Assembly (NCBI RefSeq): GCF_000223985.1
Contig: NZ_AFWV01000023.1
Span: 1 to 34,805 of the forward strand
Direction: 5' to 3'
From: Thiocapsa marina 5811
Lineage (GTDB): Bacteria; Pseudomonadota; Gammaproteobacteria; Chromatiales; Chromatiaceae
DNA: 34,805 nt
The notes beneath the pieces were generated by a model. That model was not told where the DNA came from. It saw only the letters and a list, made by a program, of their open reading frames with translations, and searched no databases. Positions 9,471 through 26,960 of this stretch are shown here, piece by piece. A program made the position numbers and the translations under genes. Positions within the stretch are counted from its first letter, which is position 1. Each line of letters opens with the position of its first letter.

Positions 9471-9588
9471 ATCGGCTCGGCCGCGACCGTCGCTGCAGGT
9501 CTGTGCTGCGCTCCGGCGCGGAAAGGGAAGAAACTCGGGCCTTATCGTTATACGCGAGATGGTGCTGCAACAATCAGGGGATGAAGGG

Positions 9589-12500
9589 ATGGCTACTTTC
9601 TATGTTTACATCACCGATCAGTGCAAGGATGACGCTGCTAGACACAGTGTCACTAAGGATATTGAGAGGCTTGCGGAAAAGATAGAAGAGGAACAGAGCG
9701 ATCGCGGCCTAGACCATTACCCCCCACCTTATCGAAAAAAGGTCATGGGGAGACCAGGGCGATTAGTCATAGAGGAGCATCGTGTCGAGGATGATACCGT
9801 TTTGTGCTTCGCTCGGTATTTCACACGTGGCAGTTCCGAATATGAGGCATTCTATAATAATACGGAAAGTTACTATGAACGTAATAACGTGCCACATGCC
9901 GAGATTGACGTCTTTCTCAAAGAGCGAAAGAAAACGCCTATCAAGAAGAAGCCACCTCTAACAGAAGCCGATCTAGCCTACCTCCAGTCCAGCAAGGCAC
10001 ATCATTACACCGATGATGGAGCGTTTCTCGAGAGCTACGATTGGTTCGATCGCATTTCTAAGGGGTGGGCAAAGGATTATTTATCTCGGTATTACGACCT
10101 GATTTGTCAAATTGAAAACAGCCTACCCTCAGGAATAGACAAGATTGTCCATGAAAAAAATAGCGACATCCAGATTCTTTTTCGGTGCTATCCCGAGCAT
10201 AAACGTGTCTTTCTGGTCGCCCCTATTGATTGTCGGAACGAGGGCGACGAACAAGAATTGCGCGAAAAATATTCAGATTTACTGACGGGTAGTTCGACGG
10301 AGATGGAGGTTCTTGTCCGCCGCAGCCGAAGAGCCTACCCAACAATCATAACCTATGACGAAAACATCTGGATTTTGGTCGAGAAGAGCGTCGAGGCAAA
10401 CTTGGCTCTATCACCTGAAGAGGAGTCCATTCTTGAGTCTTTAATGTACCCAACGAACGACGGCGCAAAATATCCTTTATTCATCAACGGGCGACCAGGT
10501 AGTGGAAAATCGACCATCCTCCAGTATTTATTCGCCGATCACCTTGCCCGATTTATTGAACTTAATCAGGGAGCAAAAGCTAACCAGGCCCCACTTTATC
10601 TCACTTATAGCACGCCGTTGCTGGAACAAGCGCGTGCTGCGGTTGATAATATCCTGACTTGTGGCGCGCGCAATATTGAAGATGGAAACGTGCTAACCAC
10701 CAGTGCTGAACTGGAAGAGATCCTTCAAACATGTTTCCGAAATTTTCGTGAGTTCCTCCGTTCGCTGCTACCACCTGACATCAAGGAAGAGTTTGCGCAT
10801 GCCAGCTACATAGACTTCGGCAGGTTCAGAAAGCTTTGGGATGAAAAGCGCAGCAAACACCCAGTTAAGGAAGTGCGGAGCATTGGTGCCGAACTCGGCT
10901 GGCATGCGGTGCGAACATTTATCAAGGGTATGCAACATGAGTCAGGTTCGGTGATAGATCCCGATTACTATCAAATTGAGCTTGCACGCGATGTAAAGTC
11001 CATCTCCGATCAGACTTTCGAGAGAATATACGAACATGTCTGGGAAACGTGGTATGAGCCTCTTTGCAGAGAGCATGGCTATTGGGATGATCAAGATCTG
11101 GCACGAGCCGTACTCACCCATGCGGGCGATAAATTGTCCCATTATCCAGCAGTATTCTGCGACGAAGCCCAAGACTTTACAACGATAGAGCTTGAGCTGA
11201 TTCAGCAGCTTTCTATCTACTCAGAGCGGGAGGTTCCCAGTTATTTGGTGAAACATGTACCCTTTGCATTTGCGGGAGACCCATTTCAAACCCTTAACCC
11301 AACTGGTTTTAACTGGAACGCGATGCAATCAAGTTTCCATGACAACATTGTTCAGCAACTTGATCCCAACGGTGCTGCGAAACTGGAATTCAATTTCCAA
11401 GAGTTGGCCTTTAACTATCGCTCGTCGGAGCACATCGTCAAACTCGCCAACCTTGTACAACTGTTACGAGCTGTATTGCTGCGCCTTAAAGGGTTGCGAC
11501 CCCAGAAAAGCTGGACACTCAAGGCTACAGTGAGCCCCGTTTGGTTCCGAAGGGATGATGTCAGTTGCCAAGCGACCCTGCGTGAGCAGGAAGAGTTAGT
11601 CATTATCGTCCCGTGCCAAGAAAACGGCGAGTTCGAGTATGTCGAAAACGACCGGTTTCTCAAATCGATGGCAGTCCAGAATGGGGAGATTACAAGAAAC
11701 ATATTGAGTCCGGCCCGAGCAAAAGGTCTGGAATATGACCGTGTGCTACTCTACGGATTCGGGGATGACGCGGTCCAACGTTTACCGAGCCTACTTGATC
11801 ACATTGATAACCCCAACAAAGATGCACCGGCAATCGAGCGACGGCTGGCATGGGAGTACTTTTTAAATCAGTTTTACGTGGCTATTACTCGCGCTCGAAA
11901 GCGTCTGTTTGTTGTCGACTCTGGTGATGCGCTGGGCCGTTTTTGGGCGTTCACGGAAGCGAACAACCAAAAAGAGTTGCTTGACCTCTATGACCACTCC
12001 GATGACTGGAGCTCTGAGGAGCTAGGTGGCCTGATGAAGGGCGATAGCTTAAGTTGGTCCGACGACAGAGACGACCCGCTGGTGCTGGCTCGTCAATGGC
12101 AGGAGCAAGGCCGTGCACAACGAGATCCATACCTGCTACTGCTCGCCAAAGGAAACTTCGAACGCGCGGGCCGGCCAGAAGAGGCACGCCTTTGCGAAGC
12201 TGAGCAGTACGAATTCGAGGGGGAATTCGACAAGGCGGCTAAGCTCTATACTACGCTTAAGCAATCAGACAACGCATGTCGGTGTTATTGGGCGAATAAA
12301 GACACAACGTCGGTCATGCGCATGGTCGAGGAGTTCGCTGAGGTCGCGGCTGATCCTCGATTTATCGCTGCAAGCGCCATCAACCGGGATCGGAACACTG
12401 CCCGCCAGATCGATACGGTCTTGACTGCGCTTCAACAGGTAACGCCTACCCCTTTCCCGGACATGCCCGGCGAAATTGATGCATGGCGGTGGTTCTTCAC

Positions 12501-14028
12501 CCGAATTGCGAGCAAAACTGGGGATGCAATCGAAGCATCCGACCGTGAAAAGGAGGTTTGGAGACCCTATATTGATCGCCTAATAAATACGATCACACGA
12601 TTCGAGCTTCCCCTTAGCACCTATCCGGAAATAGCAAAACTGCTTTTCCTTACGGGAGACCGAGAGTCTGCGCTCAATTACTGGAACACTCACTGTCTAG
12701 ATCAAAAACCAGATCCCGAGCGCGACAAGTGGCTTGTTAGGGCGCGGGCAGAGACTGAGCCTTATCCCGCGAATATCCGCTCTTTCCACGAACTTGGAGA
12801 CCATAATGCGGCTATCGATCAATGGGTAGGAACTGGCAGAGCTATTGATAACGATACCCCGGTAAAGCTGCTGCTTGATTGCGCGATATCAATCGGTGAT
12901 ATCGCGGCGATTCGAGCATTGTTCCCCGCAAATAACGATCTCGCACAAGTGTCAGCAGCGCTCAGTCGCATCGATGAAAAAGCCATCCGCTCTTTGGTCG
13001 GCGCATTGCCTGTTGCCATTTCTCATTCGCTTGAGTCTCATGGTGATTGGGGGCAACTCATTGCTTTTGTTTCGAATCAATCAACTCCGGATCGAAATTT
13101 GAATTCAATGATTAAGGAGTCGGGCATAGAGTGGCCGGCGGGAGTATTGGAGGCATCTGCGGTTCGAGCAATGGCACGCTCTGAGCGGCTCGTGCGGGCT
13201 GTGTCTAAGGTCCAAAAGGAAGTCTCAAGTTTCCTAAAGCAACATCTTGTTATTGACAAGGATGCAGTTCGTGATAAGCAAGGATCCGTCAAGTCGATAC
13301 TCAAGTTGGTGGATATTGCAGAGGCTGGAGCAGCGTTTGAGCGAGCGTTCCGTTTAACTTATGCGCTGGAGTTCTATGAGCAGTTCTTCGTAAAGAGTTT
13401 TCTCGCCTATCGGGTATTGCAACCTACCGCCGATCAAGCCGAGTTCGCGAAACGACGTTGGATTTTGTGCAAACGCCGATTGGCTAGAATGCAAGAAGGC
13501 AGTGGGAAAGAGAAGCACGATGCCGAAGCTAGAGAGTTGGAGCGTGAGTGGAATATTTCTGTCGATCAGGAGCCAGAGTATCCGGCGCTTGCGCCAATAA
13601 GCGAGCTGGAGGTTTTGGTTGTTGGGACGCCCTCAGATACCAACAGCATTACTTCTGATAACGAGAAACAAATTGCGATCGTGTCGCCTATAGAATCCAA
13701 GGCATCAGACAAGCAGCAGATTTCGGCAACGACCACGCTTAAATTGGGAAATCATGAACTGGCCGCGAAAGTTCTGACCCGAAAAAAGCGGATTATTCTT
13801 ACAGATGTAGAAACAGAAGACCAAGTGACATGTGGCCCAACCATTGTCGCCAGTGACGATTTAAAGATCGGCAGTGTTAAGGACACCGAACGCAGTCATA
13901 CATGGCAGGTCACAGATTGGGGAATCCAGTGTGAAATTGAAACTATGGATGACCGATCGGTGATTCGCTTTTGTTTTTCCGACGGCGACCCAATACTCGG
14001 GTTTGAATTTATTTCAGAGTGGAAATGA
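9589..14028 (+). CDS. Large UvrD-like SF1 helicase/ATPase with long repeat-like C-terminal half
   Basis: ATG 9589 is chosen because AGGGG lies 8 nt upstream; it gives 1479 residues. Residues 1-115 form a small basic alpha/beta domain (FYVYITDQCKDDAARH, then PYRKKVMGRPGRLVIEEHRV and VLCFARYF) whose pattern recalls a RelE/ParE-like fold. The SF1 motor follows: Walker A G301-RPGSGKST with Lys307, Walker B FCDEAQD (D525/E526), motif III GDPFQT (about 564), NYRSS, and motif VI VAITRARKR (about 763-772). Beyond residue 790 the protein is helical with TPR-like text (FEGEFDKAAKLYTTLKQSDNACRC), and it closes with a small beta-rich domain. The architecture recalls TRANK1-type and stand-alone defence helicases. 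No partner nuclease is adjacent, so it may be a single-gene system. Helicase identity is firm; the defence role is inferred. Confidence 0.88.
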   Translation: MATFYVYITDQCKDDAARHSVTKDIERLAEKIEEEQSDRGLDHYPPPYRKKVMGRPGRLVIEEHRVEDDTVLCFARYFTRGSSEYEAFYNNTESYYERNNVPHAEIDVFLKERKKTPIKKKPPLTEADLAYLQSSKAHHYTDDGAFLESYDWFDRISKGWAKDYLSRYYDLICQIENSLPSGIDKIVHEKNSDIQILFRCYPEHKRVFLVAPIDCRNEGDEQELREKYSDLLTGSSTEMEVLVRRSRRAYPTIITYDENIWILVEKSVEANLALSPEEESILESLMYPTNDGAKYPLFINGRPGSGKSTILQYLFADHLARFIELNQGAKANQAPLYLTYSTPLLEQARAAVDNILTCGARNIEDGNVLTTSAELEEILQTCFRNFREFLRSLLPPDIKEEFAHASYIDFGRFRKLWDEKRSKHPVKEVRSIGAELGWHAVRTFIKGMQHESGSVIDPDYYQIELARDVKSISDQTFERIYEHVWETWYEPLCREHGYWDDQDLARAVLTHAGDKLSHYPAVFCDEAQDFTTIELELIQQLSIYSEREVPSYLVKHVPFAFAGDPFQTLNPTGFNWNAMQSSFHDNIVQQLDPNGAAKLEFNFQELAFNYRSSEHIVKLANLVQLLRAVLLRLKGLRPQKSWTLKATVSPVWFRRDDVSCQATLREQEELVIIVPCQENGEFEYVENDRFLKSMAVQNGEITRNILSPARAKGLEYDRVLLYGFGDDAVQRLPSLLDHIDNPNKDAPAIERRLAWEYFLNQFYVAITRARKRLFVVDSGDALGRFWAFTEANNQKELLDLYDHSDDWSSEELGGLMKGDSLSWSDDRDDPLVLARQWQEQGRAQRDPYLLLLAKGNFERAGRPEEARLCEAEQYEFEGEFDKAAKLYTTLKQSDNACRCYWANKDTTSVMRMVEEFAEVAADPRFIAASAINRDRNTARQIDTVLTALQQVTPTPFPDMPGEIDAWRWFFTRIASKTGDAIEASDREKEVWRPYIDRLINTITRFELPLSTYPEIAKLLFLTGDRESALNYWNTHCLDQKPDPERDKWLVRARAETEPYPANIRSFHELGDHNAAIDQWVGTGRAIDNDTPVKLLLDCAISIGDIAAIRALFPANNDLAQVSAALSRIDEKAIRSLVGALPVAISHSLESHGDWGQLIAFVSNQSTPDRNLNSMIKESGIEWPAGVLEASAVRAMARSERLVRAVSKVQKEVSSFLKQHLVIDKDAVRDKQGSVKSILKLVDIAEAGAAFERAFRLTYALEFYEQFFVKSFLAYRVLQPTADQAEFAKRRWILCKRRLARMQEGSGKEKHDAEARELEREWNISVDQEPEYPALAPISELEVLVVGTPSDTNSITSDNEKQIAIVSPIESKASDKQQISATTTLKLGNHELAAKVLTRKKRIILTDVETEDQVTCGPTIVASDDLKIGSVKDTERSHTWQVTDWGIQCEIETMDDRSVIRFCFSDGDPILGFEFISEWK

Positions 14029-14283: not shown

Positions 14284-14524
14284 CGTTTTGCTGTCATTCG
14301 AATTGCCGGGGTCAGCGGTCGCTGGGCCCGAGCAACGGTCACTCGGTTCGGATATGGCGACAGCATGGAGGCATCCAGGACCAGACAACTGGGTCGAGGG
14401 CGCCCACGTCTGGCTATCTTCTATCACCAGACATGGCATTCTCTCTTGCCGCACGATGCCCTGCGATTGTCGAGATCCGATAAGAAGGCATTCAAATACA
14501 ATTCAACACCTGGATTGCAGGGAT

Positions 14525-15121
14525 ATGTTATCACCGGACGCCATCGAAGATCGCATTGCTCAGTTCAAACTTGATCTGACGAAATACTCTACCCTTAATA
14601 TGGCTAGGCGCCACATCATCTTTGGTGAATGCGCAACAATAAGCGCTGACGAATATTTCGATCTTAGATCCCGTATCGCCAAACTATACAGCGTTCATCC
14701 AAACGAAGTGATCGCCGTCGGTTCCGGAAAGTTGGGCTTTAGCATATCACCAAGAAAACGTTATAGACATTTCTCAAACGATTCAGACCTCGATGTTGTT
14801 ATCATTTCGGAGGAGCTTTTTGATAGGTGCTGGAGAGAACTCTTCAGATACGAGAATCAAGGTGGTTATTGGGAGAAGGCGCCTAAGCTCAAGGAATACC
14901 TTTTTCGTGGCTGGATCAGACCGGACATGATGCCGCCAGATGGTAATTTCGATTTTGGTAAGCGTTGGTGGGAGTTCTTTAATGGGCTTTCTGCGTCTCG
15001 AGATTATTCCATTTCGAGGATTAGGGGAGCCATCTACAAGAACTGGAGTTTTCTTGAGGCGTATCAATCCGTAGCAGTAGATCAATGTTCGAAGCATAGT
15101 GCGGTTGAGAGGGAAAAATGA
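14525..15121 (+). CDS. DNA polymerase beta-type nucleotidyltransferase fold protein
   Basis: The product has 198 residues from ATG 14525; longer 5' extensions of the frame do not look coding. The nucleotidyltransferase signature is clear: G66-S67-G68-K69-LGFSISP, then S87-D88-L89-D90-VVII, the GS...DxD metal and nucleotide site. The third acidic residue cannot be placed by eye. The C-terminal half is aromatic-rich (LFRGWIRPDMMP, GKRWWEFFNGLS) and could be a small helical partner domain. The fold transfers a nucleotide to RNA, protein, antibiotic or another nucleotide. The substrate here is unknown, and neither a MNT/HEPN antitoxin nor a CD-NTase can be claimed. The stop overlaps the ATG of the DUF262 gene by 4 bp, so the two are translated together and probably form one system. 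Confidence 0.82.
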   Translation: MLSPDAIEDRIAQFKLDLTKYSTLNMARRHIIFGECATISADEYFDLRSRIAKLYSVHPNEVIAVGSGKLGFSISPRKRYRHFSNDSDLDVVIISEELFDRCWRELFRYENQGGYWEKAPKLKEYLFRGWIRPDMMPPDGNFDFGKRWWEFFNGLSASRDYSISRIRGAIYKNWSFLEAYQSVAVDQCSKHSAVEREK

Positions 15122-16128
15122 AAACAAGCGCCACCAACAGACGGCTAAGGGTTCTGCTGACTGATATAAGAGAGGAAAAACTCATTCCCCGACCCGAATT
15201 TCAAAGGCGCCTTGTATGGACGAACAGGCACAAGGAATCGTTCATCCAAACAGTCTTATTGGGGTTGCCTTTCCCAGAAATATACATTGCCTCCGGAGAG
15301 GTTGATACAACTACAGGGGAGGGGAAAGAAATGTTAGTCGATGGTCAGCAGAGGATAACCACGCTTTCGCAATTTTTCACTGGCTCAGAAGATCTGAAAC
15401 TGAAGGAAATTGCTCCTTACGTCGATTTGCCTGTCGATGCGAAAAAATCATTCTTAGAATATGAGGTCGTAATCAGAGATCTTGGCTCGAAGAACATTGA
15501 AGAAATTAAAGACGTATTTCGAAGGATTAATTCTACCAAATACTCGCTCAACGCGATGGAAATTCATAATGCGAGATTTGATGGAGCGCTAAAGCAATTC
15601 GTAGATGAACTGTCAAGGAGCGCCTTCTTCGACAACAACCGCGTTTTTGGTACCACAGAAATACGTCGAATGGGTGATGTTACCTTCTGTCTCACAGTTG
15701 TCATAACCACTCTTGCGGGCTATTTTAACCGTGACTCTCTTTTCGAGGAGTTCCTGGAAAAGTACAATGATGAATTCGAGCATTCCGTTGACTTAAAAGA
15801 AGAGCTGCAGTCCGTGTTCGATCTGATCGAACACGCGCGCTTGGGCCCAAACTCCCGAGCTTGGAGAAAGGCAGACCTCTTGACGTTAATTGTTGAGTTA
15901 TACCATTTCACAGTCCGCAGATCGCACGCAATTTCACCTGAACAGTTGAAAGCTTGCTTAGAGAGCTTCTACCAGGATGTGGGCAAAGCTGCTGAAGGAG
16001 ACACTGAAGATGCAGATGCGGCGTCGTATCACAAAGCGACATTGCAAGCGACCGCCGATAAATCGAGCAGAGTGCGGCGGGGGGAAGCATTGCAAGCGCA
16101 GTTTAATAAGCTTCTAGCAATTGACTGA
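15118..16128 (+). CDS. DUF262 (GmrS/ParB-like NTPase) protein
   Basis: The product has 336 residues from ATG 15118 (ATGA overlap with the previous gene). The DUF262 signature is complete: R25-PEFQRRLVW, then D75-GQQRITTL, the nucleotide-binding loop shared with the ParB/sulfiredoxin-like fold, then VFRRINSTKYSLNAMEIHNA. In GmrSD-type restriction enzymes this domain binds and hydrolyses NTP to drive a DUF1524 HNH nuclease. No HNH motif is visible here, and the C-terminus ends in a helical stretch, so this is a DUF262-only protein. The effector activity, if there is one, must come from the nucleotidyltransferase partner or an unseen protein. Family confidence is high; function in defence is inference. 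Confidence 0.9.
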   Translation: MKTSATNRRLRVLLTDIREEKLIPRPEFQRRLVWTNRHKESFIQTVLLGLPFPEIYIASGEVDTTTGEGKEMLVDGQQRITTLSQFFTGSEDLKLKEIAPYVDLPVDAKKSFLEYEVVIRDLGSKNIEEIKDVFRRINSTKYSLNAMEIHNARFDGALKQFVDELSRSAFFDNNRVFGTTEIRRMGDVTFCLTVVITTLAGYFNRDSLFEEFLEKYNDEFEHSVDLKEELQSVFDLIEHARLGPNSRAWRKADLLTLIVELYHFTVRRSHAISPEQLKACLESFYQDVGKAAEGDTEDADAASYHKATLQATADKSSRVRRGEALQAQFNKLLAID

Positions 16129-16637
16129 ATGCTGGGATAACCGACAAGTTGGAGCTCGTCTTCGACGTTCCGTTGCCAAGACCGTCAACGACCTGAAATG
16201 GCTCCGAAGCGACATATCGGGAGGGTTACCATCAGCGTCTGCAATGCGCGTGTTCCCGCCGCCGCCCCGAACGGCCGGCAGCGGCTTCGGACGCATTGGA
16301 GACGCAGGTAGGCTACGCTGACAGTGCCTCTCCTCAGCAAAAAAGCGGACTGCTACGCCGCCGATTCTGGATCCGTTGCGCGCTTTGAGGTTGCAGGGTG
16401 CGGCTGACCCCGAAGGGCACCCCCGAGCGTGGACGTCTCAGAAAAGGTCCGTTTCGGAACGGTATCGGGATGTTGTCAGGAGTTGGGTGTTGCGGAATGG
16501 CATCTCGGTTGTTTAGCGTTAGGAAAAAAGAATGGGGGAAGGGTCGGACTGACGTGCGCCTTGGCCAGACCGTCAAACCTCTCGCGATGATAGCCGAATC
16601 GCCTTCGGCCTCGCTAATGATGTAACGCTAAGGTGCA
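16129..16637. other. Intergenic region between convergent operons
   Basis: The DUF262 gene ends at 16128 (+) and the Hsp90-like gene ends at 16638 (-), so this 509-bp gap should hold terminators. GCCGAA/TTCGGC (16593-16609, 5-nt loop) is a short hairpin without a T-run. TTAGCGTTA (16513-16521) and TAACGCTAA (16623-16631) are a perfect 9-bp inverted pair about 100 bp apart. No coding sequence is convincing on either strand. Confidence 0.5.
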
Positions 16638-18917
16638 TCACCGAGGACCGATGTCAGTGCTGTCGCTCTCCTTCGGCATCCAGTGCTTTGCCGTGCGCAT
16701 ATCTATCCAGTCGCAATGAAGTTCGAGCCTGAGTTCAACGTTACCCTTCGGCACCAGATATGGCTCTAGCTGTTCCGGGATCGGAAAATAAAGGCCGCCA
16801 TACATCTCCTGCAATGGTCGGTCGAAAGGCTGTGCGCCCTCTGCGCGCGGTGCGCCTTCAACCGTGGTGGTCACGATCTCGTCCAAGCGGATTTCATACT
16901 GGAACGAGGCGCTCACTGTGTCCGACGCCACGTATAGAATCTTGTTACCGGCCCAAACGATGCCGCGGCTTTCACACTCCGGAAGGATGTCTCCATAAGC
17001 CTTGTATGCCGACTCAGGCAGCCGGATATAGAATCCGGCCCGGCCCGTCTGACCTGTCTCATCTATGATTTGAAGGATGCGGGGATTCTTTCTTTCGGGC
17101 TGGGCGTCAGCTTGAACCTGTGCGCCGCCACCCCCAACATTGATTACCTGTACGTCCGAGCGGGTCACGACTTGCCGCCTCCCTCCCTTCCGTACGGTTC
17201 CGATATCATCCTTCAAAAGTATCCAGAGTTCGGAACGCCGCTTGGCGAGCATTTCAAGATTAAGCGCACCGTCGCCGAAGAAGCGTGGACTCCATTTCTT
17301 CAGTGAAGGGCCAAGATATTCCCGGCAGAATGAAGCGATCAGCGAGTACAGTAGTTGGCTGAACCCGAGGTCCTCCAATTTGGCAATCTCCTGGTGGCGC
17401 ACATCGACGAAGATGTCAATCGCTTGGCCGCCGCCATGCTCCTTGACGAAGACCGGAATGTCCTCCGTCAGTTTGCCGGAGACGAGGCGGAAATTGTGCA
17501 CCTCGTATGACTTTGCAATCGTCATCTCCAATTCGCTCAGGAACACACGTTCGAAGCGCGTCAGCCTCTCATAGTGCTCAATACAATCGATGATGCCGTC
17601 GAATGGCTTGGCACCACAAAACTGTTGTAGGTAACTCTTTTCGGCATTGCGCCGGTGCTGATCTGATGACAGCAGGACGACAATATGCCCCTGCGCCTGC
17701 ATGATCTGGTTGAGGGCCTGCTTCTGCGTTGTCCCGAAATAGACGCCGACGCCCCCCTGCGTCGCGCGGCGCTTGATGCTTTCAAGTGCGATTTCCGTCG
17801 CATCGGCCAAGCGTACGCGGACATTATCGAGCTTTCCTATCATCCCGCGCTTCACTACATACCGAAAAATCCGCGTGTGCTGCGCAATCCGTTCGGGCGA
17901 GTCGAGCACGGCATCAACAGCCACCCGCTCCAACAAGGCTAAAATTTGTCCGAGCAGGCTTGTCGTCGTCCCGTCCAACGAGTCGCGTCCGGCTGTCGGC
18001 ACAAAGCGATCGCCGTCCAAGCGGCCGGAAACACCGATGGTTGTTCCTATCTGGGTGGCGCAAAGCTTAAAGCCTCGCTTGAATACGTCAATCGCTCCGT
18101 TCTCAAACCGGATTTGCCCTGTGAGATTGATTGCCTCATCGCCAATGGCTAGGCCGTGAATTCCGGCAATTAGAGTATGTCCCCGGTCCTCGAATAATCG
18201 GCCTGTAATTGTGAGATTCCCCTCGCGCCACGTCTTTATGCCTACTCCAATCTCCATAAGGTTTTCACGATCATCCAGGTCCGACAAACAAGTTTGCGAA
18301 ATCTTCTTACCGTTGAAGGCGATCATAATCGGCACGAAGCGGACAAAGTCTTTCAGATAACGCTGGAGTTGCTCCACGTCCGGCGGCTCGCGCAAGTGCC
18401 CGACCACAATCGTGCCCCGTGGCGCTGCCTCGTCACTAGGACGCACTGTGACAGAGGGAATAGCGATTCCGGCAGCCTTGATATCATCCTGCGAAAGGCT
18501 CGTGTATGTGCCGTGCTCTGCTTCCTGAACCTGTGAGATGACCTCTAACCTGTCGCAGACACCAAAATTGGCAAAACCGCCGATACCGAACATGCCTACG
18601 CAACCGGCCTGCACCGCTTCTCCGGTGCGCTTTCCACTTGCTCCGATGGTCCAGAAAAAGTTCTGAAGGTCTGTTTCCGACATGCCAATCCCGTTGTCGC
18701 ACACGATGAGCTTTCGATCGTCGACGGTAACATCTATGCGGTAACGGTTGTCGCGGGGATCTACATCTTCGCGGAGCGCCTGGATGCGGATTGCATCTAC
18801 CGCGTTCTGAACATTTTCCCGTATAAACGCCATAGGCGTTTCATAGATTTGCTTCGAGATCGCCCGCAGAACACTCTCGAACTCGATTCCTACCTTAAAT
18901 GAGGATCCGCCGGTCAC
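16638..18917 (-). CDS. Hsp90-like (GHKL) ATPase
   Basis: The product has 759 residues from GTG 18917, whose GTGA overlaps the stop of the metallophosphoesterase gene. The N-terminal ATPase has every Bergerat-fold box: N box E34-NVQNAVDA with Asn38 for Mg, G1 D74-NGIGM, ATP-lid residues around GASGKRTGE, and G2 GMFGIGGFANF (108-118). The order and the WTIGASGK segment are as in Hsp90/HtpG. Beyond about residue 220 it does not look like HtpG: there is no clear client-binding middle domain or MEEVD-type end, so it is an Hsp90-related switch ATPase rather than a chaperone. Proteins of this kind recur beside nucleases in defence islands. Its obligate-looking pairing with a phosphoesterase suggests that ATP binding gates that enzyme. 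Confidence 0.88.
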   Translation of the reverse strand: MTGGSSFKVGIEFESVLRAISKQIYETPMAFIRENVQNAVDAIRIQALREDVDPRDNRYRIDVTVDDRKLIVCDNGIGMSETDLQNFFWTIGASGKRTGEAVQAGCVGMFGIGGFANFGVCDRLEVISQVQEAEHGTYTSLSQDDIKAAGIAIPSVTVRPSDEAAPRGTIVVGHLREPPDVEQLQRYLKDFVRFVPIMIAFNGKKISQTCLSDLDDRENLMEIGVGIKTWREGNLTITGRLFEDRGHTLIAGIHGLAIGDEAINLTGQIRFENGAIDVFKRGFKLCATQIGTTIGVSGRLDGDRFVPTAGRDSLDGTTTSLLGQILALLERVAVDAVLDSPERIAQHTRIFRYVVKRGMIGKLDNVRVRLADATEIALESIKRRATQGGVGVYFGTTQKQALNQIMQAQGHIVVLLSSDQHRRNAEKSYLQQFCGAKPFDGIIDCIEHYERLTRFERVFLSELEMTIAKSYEVHNFRLVSGKLTEDIPVFVKEHGGGQAIDIFVDVRHQEIAKLEDLGFSQLLYSLIASFCREYLGPSLKKWSPRFFGDGALNLEMLAKRRSELWILLKDDIGTVRKGGRRQVVTRSDVQVINVGGGGAQVQADAQPERKNPRILQIIDETGQTGRAGFYIRLPESAYKAYGDILPECESRGIVWAGNKILYVASDTVSASFQYEIRLDEIVTTTVEGAPRAEGAQPFDRPLQEMYGGLYFPIPEQLEPYLVPKGNVELRLELHCDWIDMRTAKHWMPKESDSTDIGPR

Positions 18918-20695
18918 GCCGTCCTCCTTTCCGCCCGCTTGGCACTTAACTTATCCCGAAAGGCTCGGTCGCCCGTAGCCTCAACAATTTTCTGACCAAC
19001 AGCTGCAAACCCTTCCACAGCTTCCGGAAACCGGTTCATGCCAGTCAGCACAGCTTTCTTGGCCGCCTCATGGTCCTCCGCGTCTGCCTGCAAGGAAGCC
19101 AGTGCCGCGAAGTCGGCAGCAGCCGCCAACTCATCGGCGGTGATCTCGTTGTATAACTCGATTGCCCGGAATTTTTCAGTAGCCTCGGTCGATTGGCGGA
19201 GGCACAGCGCCAGCATCCGCTGTGCCTCAATCGCCACTGTCCTTTCAGGCGAATCGAGAAGACGTTCTGCCTGGGCGCGGAGCGACTCCCAGTCTTGATA
19301 GGTGGCCAAGTCTTGCAATAGCGCAAGCGAGTGAGCAAACGGCTGAAGAGGCTCAACCCCTGCAAGCACACGCATCTCAGCTTCGCGCTCGCCCAGTTTC
19401 TGGCGCAAGCCAGGATCGGTTGTGCAGAGTTCGTTCAGCAGAATCCCGTACCGCTCAACAGCTGCGCCATAGCGGGCGAAAAAATCGTCCAATATCATTT
19501 GCCCACCAAATAACCTGAGCGGATTCCGGATCGCCATGAATGCCACAGTTGCGGCCTTCAAATCGCCGTGAGCCTGACCGAGGAGAAAGTCGAGGGTCCC
19601 GAAGACATGGCCGTTCCCCACGGCAATAGGCATCTCGGCCTGCGCTTCTATTAACAAGGCGGAGAGGTAGTGCGCGAGCGACGCAAGCGGCGTGCAGAAT
19701 TTAGCGATCGCACGGGCGAGTTCATCGAGCGAGTACGGCCGGACTGCATTAATGACGAACGTTGACTGCTTATTGTTCTCGTACGAAAATGCGCCGTCGG
19801 TCGGCTTGTATTGTATCGTTTTGACAGTCTGTCGCGCTTGCATCACGTCTAGGCTAATTATGCTATAGGCGTTATGTGCATGCCGGGATTCAAAAGACGA
19901 TCCTGCGGCAATTGTCAGGCAATGTGTACCGGAATGCACGACATGGTGCGACTCAGGGTCGTGAAGGTGGCCGCAGTGGTAAAAATGACACACTTCCTCT
20001 ATGCGGCGCTGGACCGGACGACGGTCGAACTCGTTTAGAAGATGAAACGGATGATGTCCCATCGCAATGACGAGATTGGCATCGGCTTCGCCCGCGATGC
20101 TAAGCGCGTCGATCACTTGACGTTCCCCCGCCAGGAGCTTGCCGTGGTCGGACGAGCCGCCTTCCGAGAGCCAAGCGGTGTTGATCCCGACGATTGCGAT
20201 GCTGATGTCTTCCACAACGATAGCCGAGACGTAGCCAAGTCCGTCATGGGTCCATTTCTTCTCCTGTCGCGAAAAGTAGGTCTCCTGGAACCGGCGGAAG
20301 TTTGCCTGCCGTTGCAGCAACGTTTCTAGTTCCTCAGGTGATCCCAGAAATGAGTCAATGTCATTCTGACTCTGAAGGACGTAACGCGCACCGGAGAAGC
20401 ACGTCCTTTGCCGATCTCGTTCCACATCATGGTTGCCGGGAATGCAGAAAATTCGCTCACGGGCTACGCCCGCCACCCTCGTCACTTCCTCAAAGAAAGC
20501 AGCGGCGAGAGCGTATTCATCCGCCTTGCCAGCATAGGCGAGGTCGCCGGTTGCAAGCACGAAATCGATCACGCCAGCATCTGCCCGGCGTCGCTCGATA
20601 TCAGCGCACATTGCCGAAAGCACAATGTCCTGCGCCCAAGCCCGGCTGTCGTGCAAATGGAAGTCAGACATGTGGAGCCAAGTAACCGGACGCAT
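18914..20695 (-). CDS. Calcineurin-like metallophosphoesterase with helical C-terminal domain
   Basis: ATG 20695 is preferred over a TTG at 20704; it gives 593 residues. All metal-binding motifs of the MPP superfamily are present in order: D11-x-H13 in HMSDFHLHD, GD51 in LATGDLAYAG, GNH89D, then AMGHHPFHLL and CGHLHD. These fit a dinuclear-metal phosphodiesterase or nuclease such as the SbcD/Mre11 and cyclic-nucleotide phosphodiesterase groups. Residues after about 320 are helical and alanine-rich with TPR-like spacing (LRAQAERLLDSPERTVAIEAQRM), probably for binding a partner. It is first in a two-gene operon with the Hsp90-like ATPase (4-bp overlap). Superfamily membership is firm; whether the substrate is DNA, RNA or a nucleotide signal is open. 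Confidence 0.88.
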   Translation of the reverse strand: MRPVTWLHMSDFHLHDSRAWAQDIVLSAMCADIERRRADAGVIDFVLATGDLAYAGKADEYALAAAFFEEVTRVAGVARERIFCIPGNHDVERDRQRTCFSGARYVLQSQNDIDSFLGSPEELETLLQRQANFRRFQETYFSRQEKKWTHDGLGYVSAIVVEDISIAIVGINTAWLSEGGSSDHGKLLAGERQVIDALSIAGEADANLVIAMGHHPFHLLNEFDRRPVQRRIEEVCHFYHCGHLHDPESHHVVHSGTHCLTIAAGSSFESRHAHNAYSIISLDVMQARQTVKTIQYKPTDGAFSYENNKQSTFVINAVRPYSLDELARAIAKFCTPLASLAHYLSALLIEAQAEMPIAVGNGHVFGTLDFLLGQAHGDLKAATVAFMAIRNPLRLFGGQMILDDFFARYGAAVERYGILLNELCTTDPGLRQKLGEREAEMRVLAGVEPLQPFAHSLALLQDLATYQDWESLRAQAERLLDSPERTVAIEAQRMLALCLRQSTEATEKFRAIELYNEITADELAAAADFAALASLQADAEDHEAAKKAVLTGMNRFPEAVEGFAAVGQKIVEATGDRAFRDKLSAKRAERRTA

Positions 20696-21122
20696 TTCTA
20701 GCAACCACCTTCCAGCGAGGTATTTCGCGGCACTTTAGCGTCGCATTTTCTACTGCCGGCTGGCGGAAGAATCGTGCGGGTAGTGCCTCGACAGGAGGCG
20801 ATAGTGGATGGATGTGGCATGCAGTGGGCTATAAATCCAGCATCGATGAATTCGCCGCAGTCAGTACCGACACGTCTGCGGCCGGTCCGGAGATTTCCTA
20901 TAAAAACATTCGCCATCACTGTCCTTTCTTTAGAGTTCGGCGGACGAACGATCCTTCTATCTTGGAGCCGAAGGAAGACTTGAGCAAGAGTTTCGGTCGC
21001 TGTCGATAAGTTGGGCACTCATCCATGGCATAGTTGGCGGGATAGGCGGCCAACTAGTAGCTCTTTCCGCCTAATCTTGCGTAAGCATGATCGTAGGCGT
21101 ATTTCTTAAGGTTGGTTATCAA
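20696..21122. other. Upstream region of the phosphoesterase operon and left edge of an IS remnant
   Basis: The right part leads into the truncated IS630-type transposase. The left part should hold the minus-strand promoter of the phosphoesterase operon, but no good -35/-10 pair is obvious. A minus-strand frame (about 20698-20911, MANVFIGNLRTG...) has an AAAGGA before its ATG and stops just before the phosphoesterase start. It could be a leader peptide, but its composition is unconvincing. Confidence 0.45.
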
Positions 21123-21596
21123 GAGCCCTTGGCCGGCTGGCGCAAGGTCAACGTCCGCGCCACCAACACCGCGCTTGATCTCGCGCATGAGATCAAGGAG
21201 CTGCTGGACGTCGATTATCGCAAGGCTGAAAAGGTCGTTCTGGTTTGGGACAATCTCAACACCCATGTACCGGCGTCGCTGTACAAAGCCTTTGCGCCGC
21301 AGGAGGCGCGTCGACACTTGGACCGCTTGGAGATTCACTACACCCCCAAACACAGCAGCTGGCTCGACATCGCCGAGATCGAACTGGGCGTCTTCACCAA
21401 GCAGTGTCTCGATCGGCGCATCGACGACATCGACACCCTGCGCAGCGAGGCCAAGGCCTGGGCGGATCGCCGCAATGCTTCCGCGGCCGTTGTCGACTGG
21501 CAGTTCACGACCGACAATCCACGCATCAAGCTCAAACGCTTAAATCCGCAGCTTAAGGAGGAAGGAGGTACTAGCCGCGTAAGACACAAATGCTAG
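21123..21596 (+). pseudogene. 5'-truncated IS630-family transposase
   Basis: The fragment starts abruptly at EPLAGWRKVNV and runs to the normal C-terminal KLKRLNPQ. It retains the second catalytic Asp in VLVWDNLNTH and the Glu region in HYTPKHSSWLDIAEIELGVF, both diagnostic of IS630 DDE transposases. The N-terminal helix-turn-helix and first catalytic Asp, more than half the protein, are absent. It therefore cannot be active and marks an old insertion truncated on its left side. It has no start codon of its own; ATG 21087 lies in unrelated DNA fused in frame. It lies between the phosphoesterase operon and the IS91-type element, in a hotspot of successive insertions. Confidence 0.88.
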
Positions 21597-21828
21597 TCGA
21601 GGTGTGCTGGTCTTGATACGGTTCCTCGCCTGTGCTGTCAATGGGACATAAAGGAGGTTGAACTAATCCGCTCCGCGGGGCTTATTGGAGTCCATTCGCG
21701 GCGGCAGTTGAAGTCCGAATGACGCGGCAGTAAACGGGCGCGCATGGCGGCCCCGTTCCCCGCCTGCATGTCCCCGTCGTCCACACTCGAAGGCGACCCA
21801 ATCCGGGTCGTAACCCGAGGATCGGACG

Positions 21829-22677
21829 ATGACGCCCTTACGCCAACGCATGATCGCCGCCATGCAGATGCGTGGCTTCTCCCCGCGGACCCACGCCAGT
21901 TATCTCGCCGCGGTGCGGGATCTCGCCAGATTCACCCACCGTTCCCCCGACACGCTCGGGCGGGCCGATCTCCAGGGCTATTTCGAGCACCTGGTCATCG
22001 AGCGCAGGCTCGCCCCGGCGAGCGTGCGCCTGTCCTACAACGGCATCCGCTTCCTCTATATCCAGGTGCTCGCCTGGCCCGCGGTCGACCTCGATGTAGC
22101 CCTGCCCAAGCGCCCCCAGCGTATTCCGGGGTTGCTGACCCGCGCGGAGGTCGCCGCGATCTTGGGCGCGTGCGCCAATCCCCGGTATCGGGCCATGCTC
22201 ACCGTGTGCTACGGCTGCGGACTGCGTCTGAGCGAGGTGTTGGCGCTGCGGGTGAGCGACATCGACGGTGAACGTCGGCTCCTGCGCATCGAGCAGGGCA
22301 AAGGGGCCAAGGACCGGCTGGTCCCGCTCTCCCCGACCTTGCTGGAGGCGCTGCGCGCCTACTGGCGCCTGTACCGCCCCGAGGATTGGCTGTTCGCCGG
22401 GCGCACCGGCGGCCCGCTCTCGCCGACCGTCCTGCAGAAGGCCTATACCCGGGCCAAGCACCAGGCCGGGGTCACCAAGGACGGCGGCATCCATGCGCTG
22501 CGCCATGCCTACGCCACCCATCAACTGGCGGCCGGACTGCAGGTCGAGCGGCTGCAGCGCCTGATGGGGCATCGCAGCATCCAGACCACGCTGCGCTATG
22601 TCCATTGGGTGCCCGGGGCCGGGGACGGCGACGGCCCGTTGGATCTCATCGCCCGGTTGGAGGTGAGCCATGGCTGA
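21829..22677 (+). CDS. Tyrosine recombinase (phage-integrase family) of an IS91-type element
   Basis: The product has 282 residues and an intact catalytic domain: Arg133 in YGCGLRLSEVLALR, a Lys in the beta-hairpin GKGAKDRLVPL, H222-ALR225-HAYATH, GH248-R, and nucleophile Tyr257 in TTLRYVH. The N-terminal SAM-like domain (MRGFSPRTHASYLAAVRDL) binds the core site. The length and sequence style resemble XerC/D-like and integron-type integrases. Its stop lies 8 bp inside the transposase gene, so the two are coupled. In IS91-type elements such recombinases are thought to act as accessory resolution or integration enzymes; the exact role is not established. It is unlikely to be the integrase of the whole conjugative element. 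Confidence 0.92.
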   Translation: MTPLRQRMIAAMQMRGFSPRTHASYLAAVRDLARFTHRSPDTLGRADLQGYFEHLVIERRLAPASVRLSYNGIRFLYIQVLAWPAVDLDVALPKRPQRIPGLLTRAEVAAILGACANPRYRAMLTVCYGCGLRLSEVLALRVSDIDGERRLLRIEQGKGAKDRLVPLSPTLLEALRAYWRLYRPEDWLFAGRTGGPLSPTVLQKAYTRAKHQAGVTKDGGIHALRHAYATHQLAAGLQVERLQRLMGHRSIQTTLRYVHWVPGAGDGDGPLDLIARLEVSHG

Positions 22678-23818
22678 GGCCTCCCTGCAGGCGATCATTC
22701 ACGCCTGTCTCGCCGATTATGCCGCCGACCATCCCTTGAGCCCCCGCCAGTGGCAGGTCTGCCATCACCTTCGGGACTGCCGCACCGCCGCCTTGGGCGG
22801 CTTTGCGCTGGAATGCGACGGCTGCGGGGATCGCCCGCTGCTCTATCACGCCTGCCGCGACCGGCATTGCCCGCGCTGTCAGCAGCGGGCCTCCGCGGCG
22901 TGGTGCGACCGCCAGCGCGCGGCGGTGTTGCCGGTGACGTATCACCACCTGGTCTTCACCCTGCCCGCGTCCCTCAACGGTTGGGTGGAGATCCATCCGG
23001 AGGTGATCTATGGTCTGCTGTTCGAGACGGCATGGGCGACCCTCTCGACCTTCGGCGCGGACCCCAAGCGCCTGGACGGTCAACTGGGGATGACGGCGAT
23101 GCTGCACACCTGGGGCCAGACCCTGGTGCGCCATGTCCACCTGCATTGTCTGGTGCCGGGCGGGGCACTCGGCAGCGACGGCACCTGGCATCCGGCCAAG
23201 AGCACCTATCTGTTCCCGGTCCGAGCCCTCTCCCGGCATTTCCGCGGCGGCTTTGTCGGGCGTCTACGCCGCGCTCGCGAGGACGGCAAGCTCTCCCGGA
23301 TCCAAGACGATGCGCAGGTGGATCGGATCCTCGAGACCCTGATGGCGACCGATTGGGTGGTCTATTCCAAGCCCTGCCTGGCGCGGACCGACACCGTGGT
23401 CGATTATCTGGGGCGCTACAGCCATCGCATCGCGCTGTCGGACCGCCGTCTGTTGGACTTCCACGGGGCGTCGGTGCAGCTGAGCTATAAGGACTACCGC
23501 GACGGCGATCGGCGCAAGGTGATGACCCTCACCGCGGAGGAGTTGCTCCGTCGCTTTCTGCTGCATGTCCTGCCGAAAGGGTTCATGCGGGTGCGCCACT
23601 TCGGCTTTCTGGCCAACCGCTGTCGGGCGCGGCGCTTGGCCGCGATCCGCACGGCGCTGAGCGCACCGCCGCCCGAGGCCTGCGTGCCGGAAACGCCGGC
23701 GGCGCGGTTCGACGGCTATCCCTGCCCCAAGTGCAGAACCGGGAAGCTGCAGGTGCGCGCGCACCTCGCCCCGACGGAGCATGCAGAAGGAGGACGAACG
23801 CCCCTACGCACGCTTTGA
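22670..23818 (+). CDS. IS91-family HUH (Y2-type) transposase
   Basis: The product has 382 residues from ATG 22670. The N-terminal zinc-binding region has CDGCGDRPLLYHACRDRHCP with CPRC (residues 49-70), as in IS91/IS801/ISCR transposases. The HUH metal site is H157-L-H159 in VRHVHLHCLVPGG. The catalytic tyrosine region VDYLGRYSHRIALS (Tyr246 and Tyr250) follows. This enzyme nicks one strand at oriIS and drives rolling-circle replication to terIS, sometimes dragging neighbouring DNA along, which is one way defence genes could be mobilised. The C-terminus has a CPKC pair. No frameshift or stop is visible, so the enzyme is probably functional. Confidence 0.93.
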   Translation: MAEASLQAIIHACLADYAADHPLSPRQWQVCHHLRDCRTAALGGFALECDGCGDRPLLYHACRDRHCPRCQQRASAAWCDRQRAAVLPVTYHHLVFTLPASLNGWVEIHPEVIYGLLFETAWATLSTFGADPKRLDGQLGMTAMLHTWGQTLVRHVHLHCLVPGGALGSDGTWHPAKSTYLFPVRALSRHFRGGFVGRLRRAREDGKLSRIQDDAQVDRILETLMATDWVVYSKPCLARTDTVVDYLGRYSHRIALSDRRLLDFHGASVQLSYKDYRDGDRRKVMTLTAEELLRRFLLHVLPKGFMRVRHFGFLANRCRARRLAAIRTALSAPPPEACVPETPAARFDGYPCPKCRTGKLQVRAHLAPTEHAEGGRTPLRTL

Positions 23819-24533: not shown

Positions 24534-26717
24534 TCACCCCTCCGCCAACCGCTCCCGCAACCGCGTCAACCGCCCGGCGCCGGTCTGTTTGACCGCCATG
24601 GCGAGCGCCTTGGGCTGGGCGATCAAGACAACCAAGTGCTTGCCGCGGGTCACCGCGGTGTAGAGCAGGTTGCGCTGCAGCAGGGTGTAATGCTGGGTCG
24701 CCAGCGGGATGACCACGGCTGGGTACTCCGAGCCCTGGGCCTTGTGCACGCTGGTGGCGTAGGCAAGTGCGAGGGCATCGAGCTCGCCGGTCTCGTAGGC
24801 AACGGGGCGCCCGTCGAAGTCGATGGTCAGGAGCCCTTCTTCCAGATCGATCGTGCGGATCCGTCCGATGTCGCCGTTGAAGACCTCCTTGTCGTAGTCG
24901 TTCACCAGCTGGATGACCTTGTCGCCCGGGGCGTAGGTCCAGCCGAAGCGCTCGATGCGCGGCTGGGCTTCCGGGTTCAGCGCGGCCTGCAAGGCGACGT
25001 TGAGCGCCCGCGCCCCGAGACCGCCGCGGTTCATCGGGGTCAGCACCTGGATGTCGCGCACCGGATCCAGGCCGAAGCGCGCCGGGATGCGCTCGGTCAC
25101 CACCCGCAGGAGCCGCTCGTGAATCGCCTCCGGGGTGTCGACCCGGATCAGATGAAAGTCGGTGTCCGGACCGTCCGGAGCCGCCGGTTCGGGCAGCTGT
25201 CCGGCGTTGATGCGGTGCGCGTTGACGATGATCCGCGAGGCGGCGGCCTGGCGAAAGATCTCGGTCAGACGCAGGGTCGGCAGCGTGCCGGCCGAGATCA
25301 GGTCGGCGAGCACCGCGCCGGGCCCGACCGAAGGGAGCTGATCGACATCCCCGACCAGGAGCAGCGCCGCAAAGCTCGGCACGGCACGCAGCAACTGGTT
25401 CATCAGCACGATGTCGACCATCGAGGTCTCGTCGACCACCACAAGATCGGCCTCCAGCGGATGCTCGGCATCGCGCTTGAAGCCCATCGCCTGCGGGTCG
25501 AATTCGAGCAGCCGGTGGATGGTCTTGGCCTCCCGGCCGGTCGACTCGGAGAGCCGCTTGGCCGCGCGCCCGGTCGGCGCGCAGAGCAAAACCTCCACAC
25601 CCTTCGCCGCGAGGATCCGCAACAGGCTGTTGACCACCGTGGTCTTGCCCACGCCCGGACCGCCCGTAATGATGGCGACCTTGGCCTCGAGCACCGTTGC
25701 GACCGCGGACCGCTGCGAGGCCGAGAGCACCTGTCCGGTGCGTGTCTCCACCCACGGCAGCGCCTTCTCGGCGTCGATCCGAGCCCAGGGCGGCGGATCC
25801 TGCGCAAGCCGGCGCAGATGACCGGCGACCCCGCGCTCGGCGCGCTGCAGGGGCGCGAGGAAGAGGGCAGGGCGCTCGGCGATCGTCTCGGCGACCAGGC
25901 GTTCCTCGGCCAGCTCGCTGTCGATCGCCGCCGCGATGATCGGGGCGGGGATCTCCAAGAGACGCGTGGCCTGCGTGCTCAGCTCATCCCGCCAAGCGGC
26001 GCAGTGGCCTTCGGTGGAGCGCTCCTGGAGCACATGCCGCACCCCCGCCTGCGCCCGGATCGGCGCATCGCGCGCGATCCCGAGGCGCTCCGCGATCGCA
26101 TCCGCGGTCTTGAAGCCGATGCCCCAGATGTCCAAGGCCAGGCGATAGGGATTCTCGCGGACCTTCTCGACCGCGGCGTCCCCGTAGGTCTTGTAGATGC
26201 GCACTGCGCGCGCCGTGCCGACCCCGTGGGACTGCAGAAACACCATGATCTCGCGGATCACCTTCTGCTCGGCCCAGGCCGAGGTCACCCGCTGTTGGCG
26301 CTTCGGACCGATCCCCGGCAATGCGAGCAACCGCTCCGGGGTCTCCTCGATGACGGTGAAGACGTCCTCGCCGAAGGCCGCAACCAGGGTGCGGGCGAAG
26401 TGCGGTCCGATGCCCTTGACCATCCCCGAGCCGAGATAACGCTCGATCCCCTCCAGGCTGCGCGGCGGGACGATCCGCAAGCTGGTGGCCTTGTACTGCA
26501 AACCGTGCTGCCGATCGTTGACCCAATGCCCCTCGGCTTCGAGATGCTCGCCGGGCGAGACGCTGGCGGCGGAGCCGATGAGGGTGACCAGGTCCCGCTG
26601 ACCGCGCACCTGCACCCGCAGCACGCAGAAGCCGCTCTCGGGGCTGTGGTAGGTGACGCGCTCGACGGCGCCGCTGAGCGGTTCGGTCGGGGTGCCTGTC
26701 GACAACGGCGCGGTCAC
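24534..26717 (-). CDS. recD2: RecD2-type SF1B DNA helicase
   Basis: GTG 26717 gives 728 residues, the usual RecD2 length (about 715-740); the frame continues upstream without family-like sequence, so the start is uncertain. An N-terminal OB-like region ([20 protein letters not shown]) is typical of RecD2. It is followed by tandem helix-hairpin-helix motifs ([26 protein letters not shown]) and the helicase core: Walker [10 protein letters not shown] with Lys358, Walker B VVDETS (D429/E430), [12 protein letters not shown], and the C-terminal motifs [14 protein letters not shown] and [10 protein letters not shown]. RecD2 unwinds 5' to 3' and acts in repair of stalled or damaged DNA outside RecBCD. 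It is divergent from drmD across 243 bp. It may be a resident chromosomal gene or DISARM-associated cargo; context alone does not decide. Confidence 0.92.
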
Positions 26718-26960
26718 GATGCTGCGGACCTGTTTTGACTGGGGGCGGTGTCGGTGTGTCCCGCACGATGCCGATGGTTTTCTCGATACCGGATCCGGGC
26801 CGGATCGGGATACCCTCATTCGACAATGCCGATTGAAGTGGAGGAGGGCGCAGCATAGGCCGAGATCGGCGAATGGCCAAGGACCTGCGCATTCGTTCTG
26901 ATTTAAACTTGATGGTATGTTAATGGAAAACGCGCCATGTACTTGGCAAAGGGAGAGACA

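Follow-up and report, generated by a model that had tools for sequence, protein, structure and literature searches.

Several described bacterial systems place a metallophosphoesterase (MPP) beside a regulatory partner. The anti-phage system DS-8 (MPP-NACHT) joins an MPP domain to a P-loop NACHT ATPase in one chain, and DS-9 is a two-gene unit led by an MPP whose partner is a HAD phosphatase (DefensePredictor, PMC13092281). According to the accessible part of that source, DS-8 and DS-9A need the MPP catalytic residues for defence and their substrates are unknown. Related MPPs occur as effectors in systems whose other members are a GTPase and a helical GASH protein (Kaur et al., 2020, PMC7159879, accessible part), and the available sections of PMC7159879 and PMC8195603 present calcineurin-type phosphoesterases as predicted nucleotide-targeting effectors of NTPase conflict systems. 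For VcSduA, a GHKL-Shedu protein, the authors put forward the hypothesis that the GHKL ATPase governs a linked effector, there a fused PD-(D/E)xK nuclease (accessible part of PMC12137116). Here we describe a pair of adjoining genes in Thiocapsa marina 5811, coding for an MPP and a separate GHKL/Hsp90-type ATPase, on a stretch of 34,805 nucleotides (NZ_AFWV01000023.1, hereafter the window) that is the entire contig C40 of its genome. We read the pair, with a probability of roughly 0.6, as a mobile module of two genes, directed against phages or mobile elements and made of a GHKL switch and an MPP effector.

The pair is a conserved two-gene unit of rare occurrence, seen on plasmids, viral contigs and islands. 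With each place counted once, nine distinct full-length GHKL genes were collected (the window and eight others), and an MPP gene lies directly upstream on the same strand in 9/9. The same profile found an MPP in 0/12 control loci coding for HtpG or for partial Hsp90-like or GHKL proteins (L009, L010, L020 and L052-L060, each flanked by at least about 4 kb at both ends), and in none of the other, shorter loci, whose flanks are only 0.2-1.5 kb. The genes overlap by exactly 4 base pairs in six of the nine loci (window, L002, L008, L018, L019 and L038), by 1 base pair in L007, not at all in L017 and by about 8 base pairs in L003, whose start is uncertain; order and near-zero spacing are kept down to 22% GHKL and 17% MPP identity. 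The first-pass annotation of the window, made from its letters, took such co-occurrence with conserved overlap as the thing to look for and homologues conserved singly in chromosomal housekeeping contexts as evidence to the contrary. In the material searched, no full-length homologue was found alone, and the one sequence without an MPP (L004:3814-4935, in an Acidobacteriaceae metagenome-assembled genome) is a GHKL fragment.

These relatives came from four sources. A peptide-pattern scan of a collection of 84,980 species, a method limited to close relatives, gave three hits, in Bradyrhizobium sp. LHD-71 (79% identity), in a Chromatiales metagenome-assembled genome (71%) and, as a fragment, in the Acidobacteriaceae one. 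Searches of plasmids by tblastn gave three P. aeruginosa plasmids, with ATPases 100% identical among themselves, and a Rhizobium plasmid; IMG/VR gave three full-length relatives (L017-L019), and a survey of the Bradyrhizobium order a further locus (L038/L040). In Bradyrhizobium LHD-71 the MPP frame is broken into two pieces (L002:6216-8004), by decay or sequencing error. On the plasmid of Rhizobium sp. 007 the MPP gene (L008:6496-7968) is not annotated as such, and the record shows at its place small hypothetical proteins, two of them on the opposite strand.

Both genes are under purifying selection. Between the window and L002, the synonymous difference per site is 0.84 for the GHKL gene and 0.79 for the MPP gene, against nonsynonymous differences of 0.13 and 0.22; for the L002 MPP, the first open reading frame piece only was used here and in the trees. 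Because the synonymous difference exceeds the nonsynonymous one, the pair is more than a chance arrangement. The identities of the two proteins also move together: the correlation is r 0.97 across 36 pairs, most of it owed to the split into two deep groups, and r 0.82 across the 15 pairs that belong to group B. In the ATPase tree, where long branches were flagged, the nine paired proteins cluster with 100/100 support, apart from the 17 other Hsp90-like rows. The paired MPPs split into group A (window, L002 and L003) and group B (the six other loci), and a single clade for the nine was rejected by the approximately unbiased test (p 0.00056 with 18 rows, p 0.00012 with 15 rows); it was no longer rejected once the Nostoc row L051 was removed (14 rows, p 0.12). 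The 88-residue piece L043 was kept out of all MPP trees and the long-branched L045, L047 and L049 out of the 15- and 14-row trees. As the MPP tree rejects one clade while the ATPases form one group, the ATPase may have swapped its MPP effector, a suggestion that hangs on the one sequence L051.

The MPP is, by its sequence, a calcineurin-like, metal-dependent metallophosphoesterase (Pfam Metallophos, E 1.7e-8). The MPP metal motifs reported at first pass are all there, and the 11 positions checked (D11, H13, D51, N88, H89, D90, H214, H215, G242, H243 and H245) are identical in 9/9 pairs. It matches the profiles PADLOC PDC-S60 (E 8.5e-44 over 307 residues) and NCBIfam DS8_antiphage (E 7.5e-39, residues 11-313, 133 bits against a cut-off of 790), with DS9_1_antiphage scoring 56.5 against a cut-off of 420; no NACHT match was found in the window protein. 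Weak profile matches extend to the Listeria protein 2xmo and to the DNA polymerase II small subunit and SbcD-type exonucleases, these last two at E 0.0002-0.005. By fold (Foldseek), the core is near Rv0805 (E 5.9e-4) and a glycerophosphodiesterase (E 2.4e-3), and the top match is 9a6c_B (YydB), itself an integrative model for which no useful paper was found. The helical tail described at first pass is recovered in the AlphaFold2 model and resembles consensus TPR proteins (7obi, TMt 0.74, E 0.06), without a significant Pfam TPR match; it is likely a docking or sensing part. Group B MPPs are shorter by about 100-115 residues and their tails align poorly with that of the window.

The ATPase matches Pfam HATPase_c_3 (E 3.9e-9) and the NCBIfam HSP90 family PRK14083 (E 1.4e-24, residues 12-206 only, 86.5 bits against a cut-off of 455), as well as the N domains of TRAP1 and Hsp82 with E-values down to 5.8e-20 among the best 60 of 151 matches. 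The Hsp90/GHKL boxes of the ATP site, also noted before, are intact: the 20 positions checked, including E34, N38, D74, G76, G78, K96, G108, G111, G113, T169 and R311, are identical in 9/9 pairs. The first-pass statement that an Hsp90 client domain is absent holds for one part of the protein only. No PF00183 match was found in the Pfam scan, and the last 215 residues or so of the window protein have no Pfam match and a predicted local distance difference test score (pLDDT) mostly below 50. On the other side, the model follows the N and middle domains of Hsp90 (Foldseek 4ivg, TMt 0.62, 504 columns, root-mean-square deviation 6.7), and the PTAGR loop (R311) aligns, with low bit scores, with PTAxRE of Hsp90-like proteins; the ATPase appears to keep an Hsp90-like middle region. 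Its C-terminal region has W655, G657, Y674, I676, P712 and P714 invariant in 8/8 aligned proteins.

Table 1. Features of the MPP-ATPase pair in the window (all on the minus strand).
Feature	Coordinates	Strand	Basis or remark
MPP gene	18914..20695	-	593 amino acids from ATG 20695; Pfam Metallophos
GHKL/Hsp90-type ATPase gene	16638..18917	-	759 amino acids, GTG start; HATPase_c_3
Gene overlap GTGA, 4 base pairs	18914..18917	-	
Ribosome-binding-like AAAGGAGG for GHKL gene	18923..18930	-	Inside MPP gene; read from sequence
MPP catalytic domain, residues ~1-313	19757..20695	-	D11 H13 D51 N88 H89 D90 H214 H215 H243 H245
MPP helical tail, last ~140 residues TPR-like	18917..19756	-	AlphaFold2 helices, pLDDT mostly 70-91
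Hsp90-type N-terminal ATPase domain, residues ~1-210	18288..18917	-	Profile matches to TRAP1 and Hsp82 N domains
Putative Hsp90-like middle region with PTAGR loop (R311), residues ~211-543	17289..18287	-	Foldseek to Hsp90 N + middle structures
ATPase C-terminal region, residues 544-759	16641..17288	-	Without known domain; conserved in the pair family

Both genes are open on the minus strand at the positions first assigned to them, and the overlap noted then is confirmed (Table 1). The ATG of the MPP was picked by its fit to the homologue L003 and its spacing from GGTGG; the alternative start, TTG 20704, would give a gene at 18914-20704. The element AAAGGAGG ends five bases ahead of the GHKL GTG start. 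The promoter region once attributed to the pair was not recovered, since a promoter scan of 15900-21700 found one promoter-like site, on the opposite strand only, where shuffled sequences gave 2.7 on average. The pair has a GC content of 56% against 67-69% in the measured flanks and sits in a low-GC island of foreign or mobile DNA, which together with the plasmids and viral contigs bears out the earlier description of its setting as cargo DNA.

Full-length relatives of the ATPase are rare wherever genomes were surveyed. Among 190 near relatives, one was found in the own genome alone, another genome matching in the N domain only. The counts were 1/398 genomes for the phylum and 1/369 for the class (the own genome each time, with 15 further class genomes matching in the N domain only), 2/377 genomes for the Bradyrhizobium order (one being Bradyrhizobium itself) and 1/350 for the class of the Chromatiales metagenome-assembled genome (that genome itself); the ten genomes listed from the same genus are all without one. 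The surveys used E-value limits of 1e-15 to 1e-35 and scored only a handful of top candidates in each genome, and may have missed some relatives. A DNA search with the Pseudomonas pair gave no match in 20,395 E. coli genome records, and the L018 ATPase had no match in phage records at 1e-12. Partial matches to P0001 occur in 27 phage records, none covering over 80% of it, and the 20 listed are restricted to the N domain.

Compared with the described systems, the pair shares with DS-8 a homologous MPP domain and an ATPase partner, and differs in that the partner is a separate Hsp90-type GHKL protein; as a whole protein its MPP falls short of DS-8, lacking the fused NACHT. It has the two-gene form of DS-9 and a homologous leading MPP, with a GHKL ATPase in 9/9 loci where DS-9 has its phosphatase, and remains under the DS-9 score. 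The candidate system PDC-S60 is alike in the MPP region, only positions 4-309 of its 1027-long model being matched. GTPase/GASH systems have a related MPP and other partners, and VcSduA a comparable ATPase and another, fused effector. In the scans, neither protein was covered over its whole length by a model of PADLOC 2.0.0 (2023), NCBIfam (2026) or Pfam, and no name for an MPP + Hsp90-like pair was found in these or among the papers listed in the literature searched, subscription papers and supplements being outside its scope. The first-pass failure to match a named system therefore stands for the whole proteins and not for the MPP domain, which is not without kin since DS-8 and DS-9A, both below their cut-offs, are named anti-phage relatives. 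The legend of Fig. 6F of DefensePredictor, in the accessible part of PMC13092281, lists HATPase and TPR among predicted systems, and an overlap of the pair with that prediction is possible.

MPP relatives outside the pair adjoin GASH genes in L041, L042 and L044, with a GTPase-annotated gene in two of the three, lie inside or at the start of long proteins in L045, L046 and L047, stand just upstream of a long protein in L043 (a short piece), and in L051 fall inside a long Nostoc reading frame adjoining a NACHT gene. Two viral contigs (L048:717-3689 and L049:5986-8973) carry, by eye, single chains of about 990 residues with an MPP and a STAND-like part, which look like DS-8-type systems.

With Hsp90, TRAP1 and HtpG the window ATPase has the N domain and its conserved motifs in common, and its model suggests a similar middle domain; it does not match them as a whole protein, and no C-terminal dimerisation domain of their kind is recognised in it. 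No tail like the MEEVD motif of Hsp90 is present in the nine paired-ATPase C termini. PP5 is held by Hsp90 as a co-chaperone, and the MPP type of the pair differs from it. The likeness to PP5 on Hsp90 (title of PDB 8gae) lies in a TPR and metallophosphatase partner of an Hsp90-type ATPase. The nearest rows outside the pair in the ATPase tree (L006, L009 and L010) are Hsp90-like proteins whose adjoining gene is TPR-like, and they are nearer to the pair than canonical HtpG is; L006 belongs to the L052 locus, L052 being the wider stretch. Such gene pairs are seen in three unrelated settings (L009:5977-10124, L010:7968-12946 and L052:3612-6597), the TPR-like neighbour being a Pfam TPR_12 match of E 0.0073, under the cut-off, in L009 and recognised by eye only in L010 and L052.

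By analogy with DS-8, DS-9A, the NTPase conflict systems and VcSduA, the MPP is given the part of effector and the GHKL protein that of switch, and the pair would belong with, and work like, a wider class in which an MPP effector is coupled to an NTPase switch, the Hsp90-type partner being the new part. The GHKL protein would be an Hsp90-type, probably dimeric, ATP clamp serving as sensor or switch. The MPP is probably a nucleotide phosphodiesterase; its metal site would hydrolyse phosphodiester bonds, most likely of nucleotides or nucleotide signals, which are likelier substrates than nucleic acid, the main rival. The TPR-like tail could bind the clamp or the trigger and keep the enzyme off, until infection changes the state of the ATPase and the MPP is released. 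We infer that control runs through the GHKL protein, which could act either way, by holding the MPP off or by switching it on. The first-pass reading as an ATP-gated nuclease or phosphodiesterase is an interpretation of the same kind, and that earlier view is, as a whole, partly supported. A bolder version, doubtful at present, is that an Hsp90 clamp was made into an immune switch: the TPR-tailed MPP would be held like a co-chaperone (cf. PP5), infection would free it to destroy a nucleotide pool or signal, and the ATPase lineage would have taken up MPPs more than once.

In favour of a defence role, defence-type genes occur near 6/9 pairs: a DUF262 gene and a UvrD-like helicase in the window; a SacI-type endonuclease, a cytosine methylase and SIR2/PDC-S65 in L002; AbiEi/AbiEii and a STAND-like protein in L003; three-component ABC genes, by annotation, in L007; an nSTAND3-like protein, under the cut-off, and Mu-type transposition genes in L018; and in L040 type I restriction-modification genes hsdM/S/R, with the pair just behind them. 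Other observations weigh against a defence role or the proposed mechanism. No defence gene was recognised near L008, L017 and L019, L017 carrying a portal protein gene and L019 a recombinase. Nine HtpG-type control loci, hand-picked from 15 class-survey matches limited to the N domain, were not discriminated from the pairs by their neighbours (71 neighbour reading frames near pairs against 64 near controls; 68 against 60 redundant PADLOC families, 25 listed of each and pooled, not split by locus), and also hold type I methyltransferase and specificity genes. Neighbours were chosen by length (150-1800 amino acids, within 6 kb, little overlap), some being spurious and some real genes falling outside the selection (window 9559-14028, and hsdM and hsdS of L040). 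As pair and control neighbourhoods were not separated, no defence-island enrichment is claimed. Both AlphaFold models are of moderate quality (mean pLDDT 64 each; six sequences for the ATPase, five for the MPP), that of the MPP being poor in parts of the core and better in the tail; the tail was called TPR-like from its fold alone, and the matches to exonuclease-like MPPs make the substrate a guess.

These matches also feed the idea of a restriction-type nuclease, in which a paraMORC/MutL-like DNA clamp (the GHKL protein) joins a Mre11/SbcD-like DNA nuclease (the MPP) and the two cut invading DNA directly. ParaMORC GHKL ATPases occur in restriction-modification operons (accessible part of PMC2292703), and the position of the L040 pair fits such a setting. 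We nevertheless find it unlikely: the ATPase is nearest to the HSP90 family and not to MutL or topoisomerase VI, the MPP scores higher with DS-8/DS-9A models than with SbcD chains (the libraries being different), and the helicase, methylase or nuclease operon of MORC systems is not conserved, no helicase or methylase being seen to accompany the pair across the nine loci, where only the MPP is constant and restriction-modification genes were recognised near two (L002 and L040). An accessory stress, repair or addiction module on mobile elements, not involved in defence, would suit the three pairs in viral contigs, the unseparated neighbourhoods and the other settings of Hsp90-like and TPR-like gene pairs (L009, L010 and L052); the kinship of the MPP with validated anti-phage proteins, the rare and patchy spread and the several defence neighbours make it rather improbable. 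The viral contigs, with the portal gene of L017 or the Mu-type genes of L018, could even point to phage counter-defence, the MPP destroying host immune nucleotide signals with the help of the GHKL protein. Yet the pairs also lie on plasmids and chromosomal contigs, proteins of about 500-600 and 770 amino acids are large for an anti-signal enzyme, and the MPP kin are defence effectors, so that we regard this as very improbable. Two simpler explanations were discarded: a chance neighbour pair, by the 9/9 pairing, the 0/12 controls, the co-divergence and the selection; and a housekeeping HtpG, as the 15 non-window class matches (16/369 in total) cover only about 180-230 N-terminal positions.

Around the pair, the window holds other units. 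The gene at 9559-14028 (plus strand) codes for 1489 amino acids with SF1 helicase motifs, a UvrD_C match (E 2.8e-8) and weak PADLOC matches to GajB, and is possibly a separate defence gene. The DUF262 gene at 14288-16128 (plus strand; GmrSD_N E 4.8e-23, PADLOC NsnA E 3.8e-33) overlaps by 4 base pairs an upstream reading frame whose part 14522-15121 gave no Pfam match. A piece of an IS630-like transposase, a tyrosine recombinase and an IS91 transposase adjoin the pair at 21087-23818 (plus strand). Further on lies a RecD-like helicase region (24534-27467), its DNA 82% identical over about 520 bases to an Allochromatium vinosum plasmid, and a stretch at 27219-27467 is similar to the DISARM gene drmD of a Nocardia plasmid.

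The MPP defence proteins and predicted systems compared here have P-loop NTPases, GTPases or, in DS-9, a HAD phosphatase as partners. If our reading of the pair as a defence module is true, the known immune switches would gain a chaperone-like clamp, an Hsp90-type ATPase strictly paired with its effector, and Hsp90-type ATP cycles beyond protein folding could be followed in a small system with simple genetics. The pair would also provide a bacterial parallel to the control of PP5 by Hsp90, and it bears on what MPPs of the DS-8 and DS-9 type hydrolyse.

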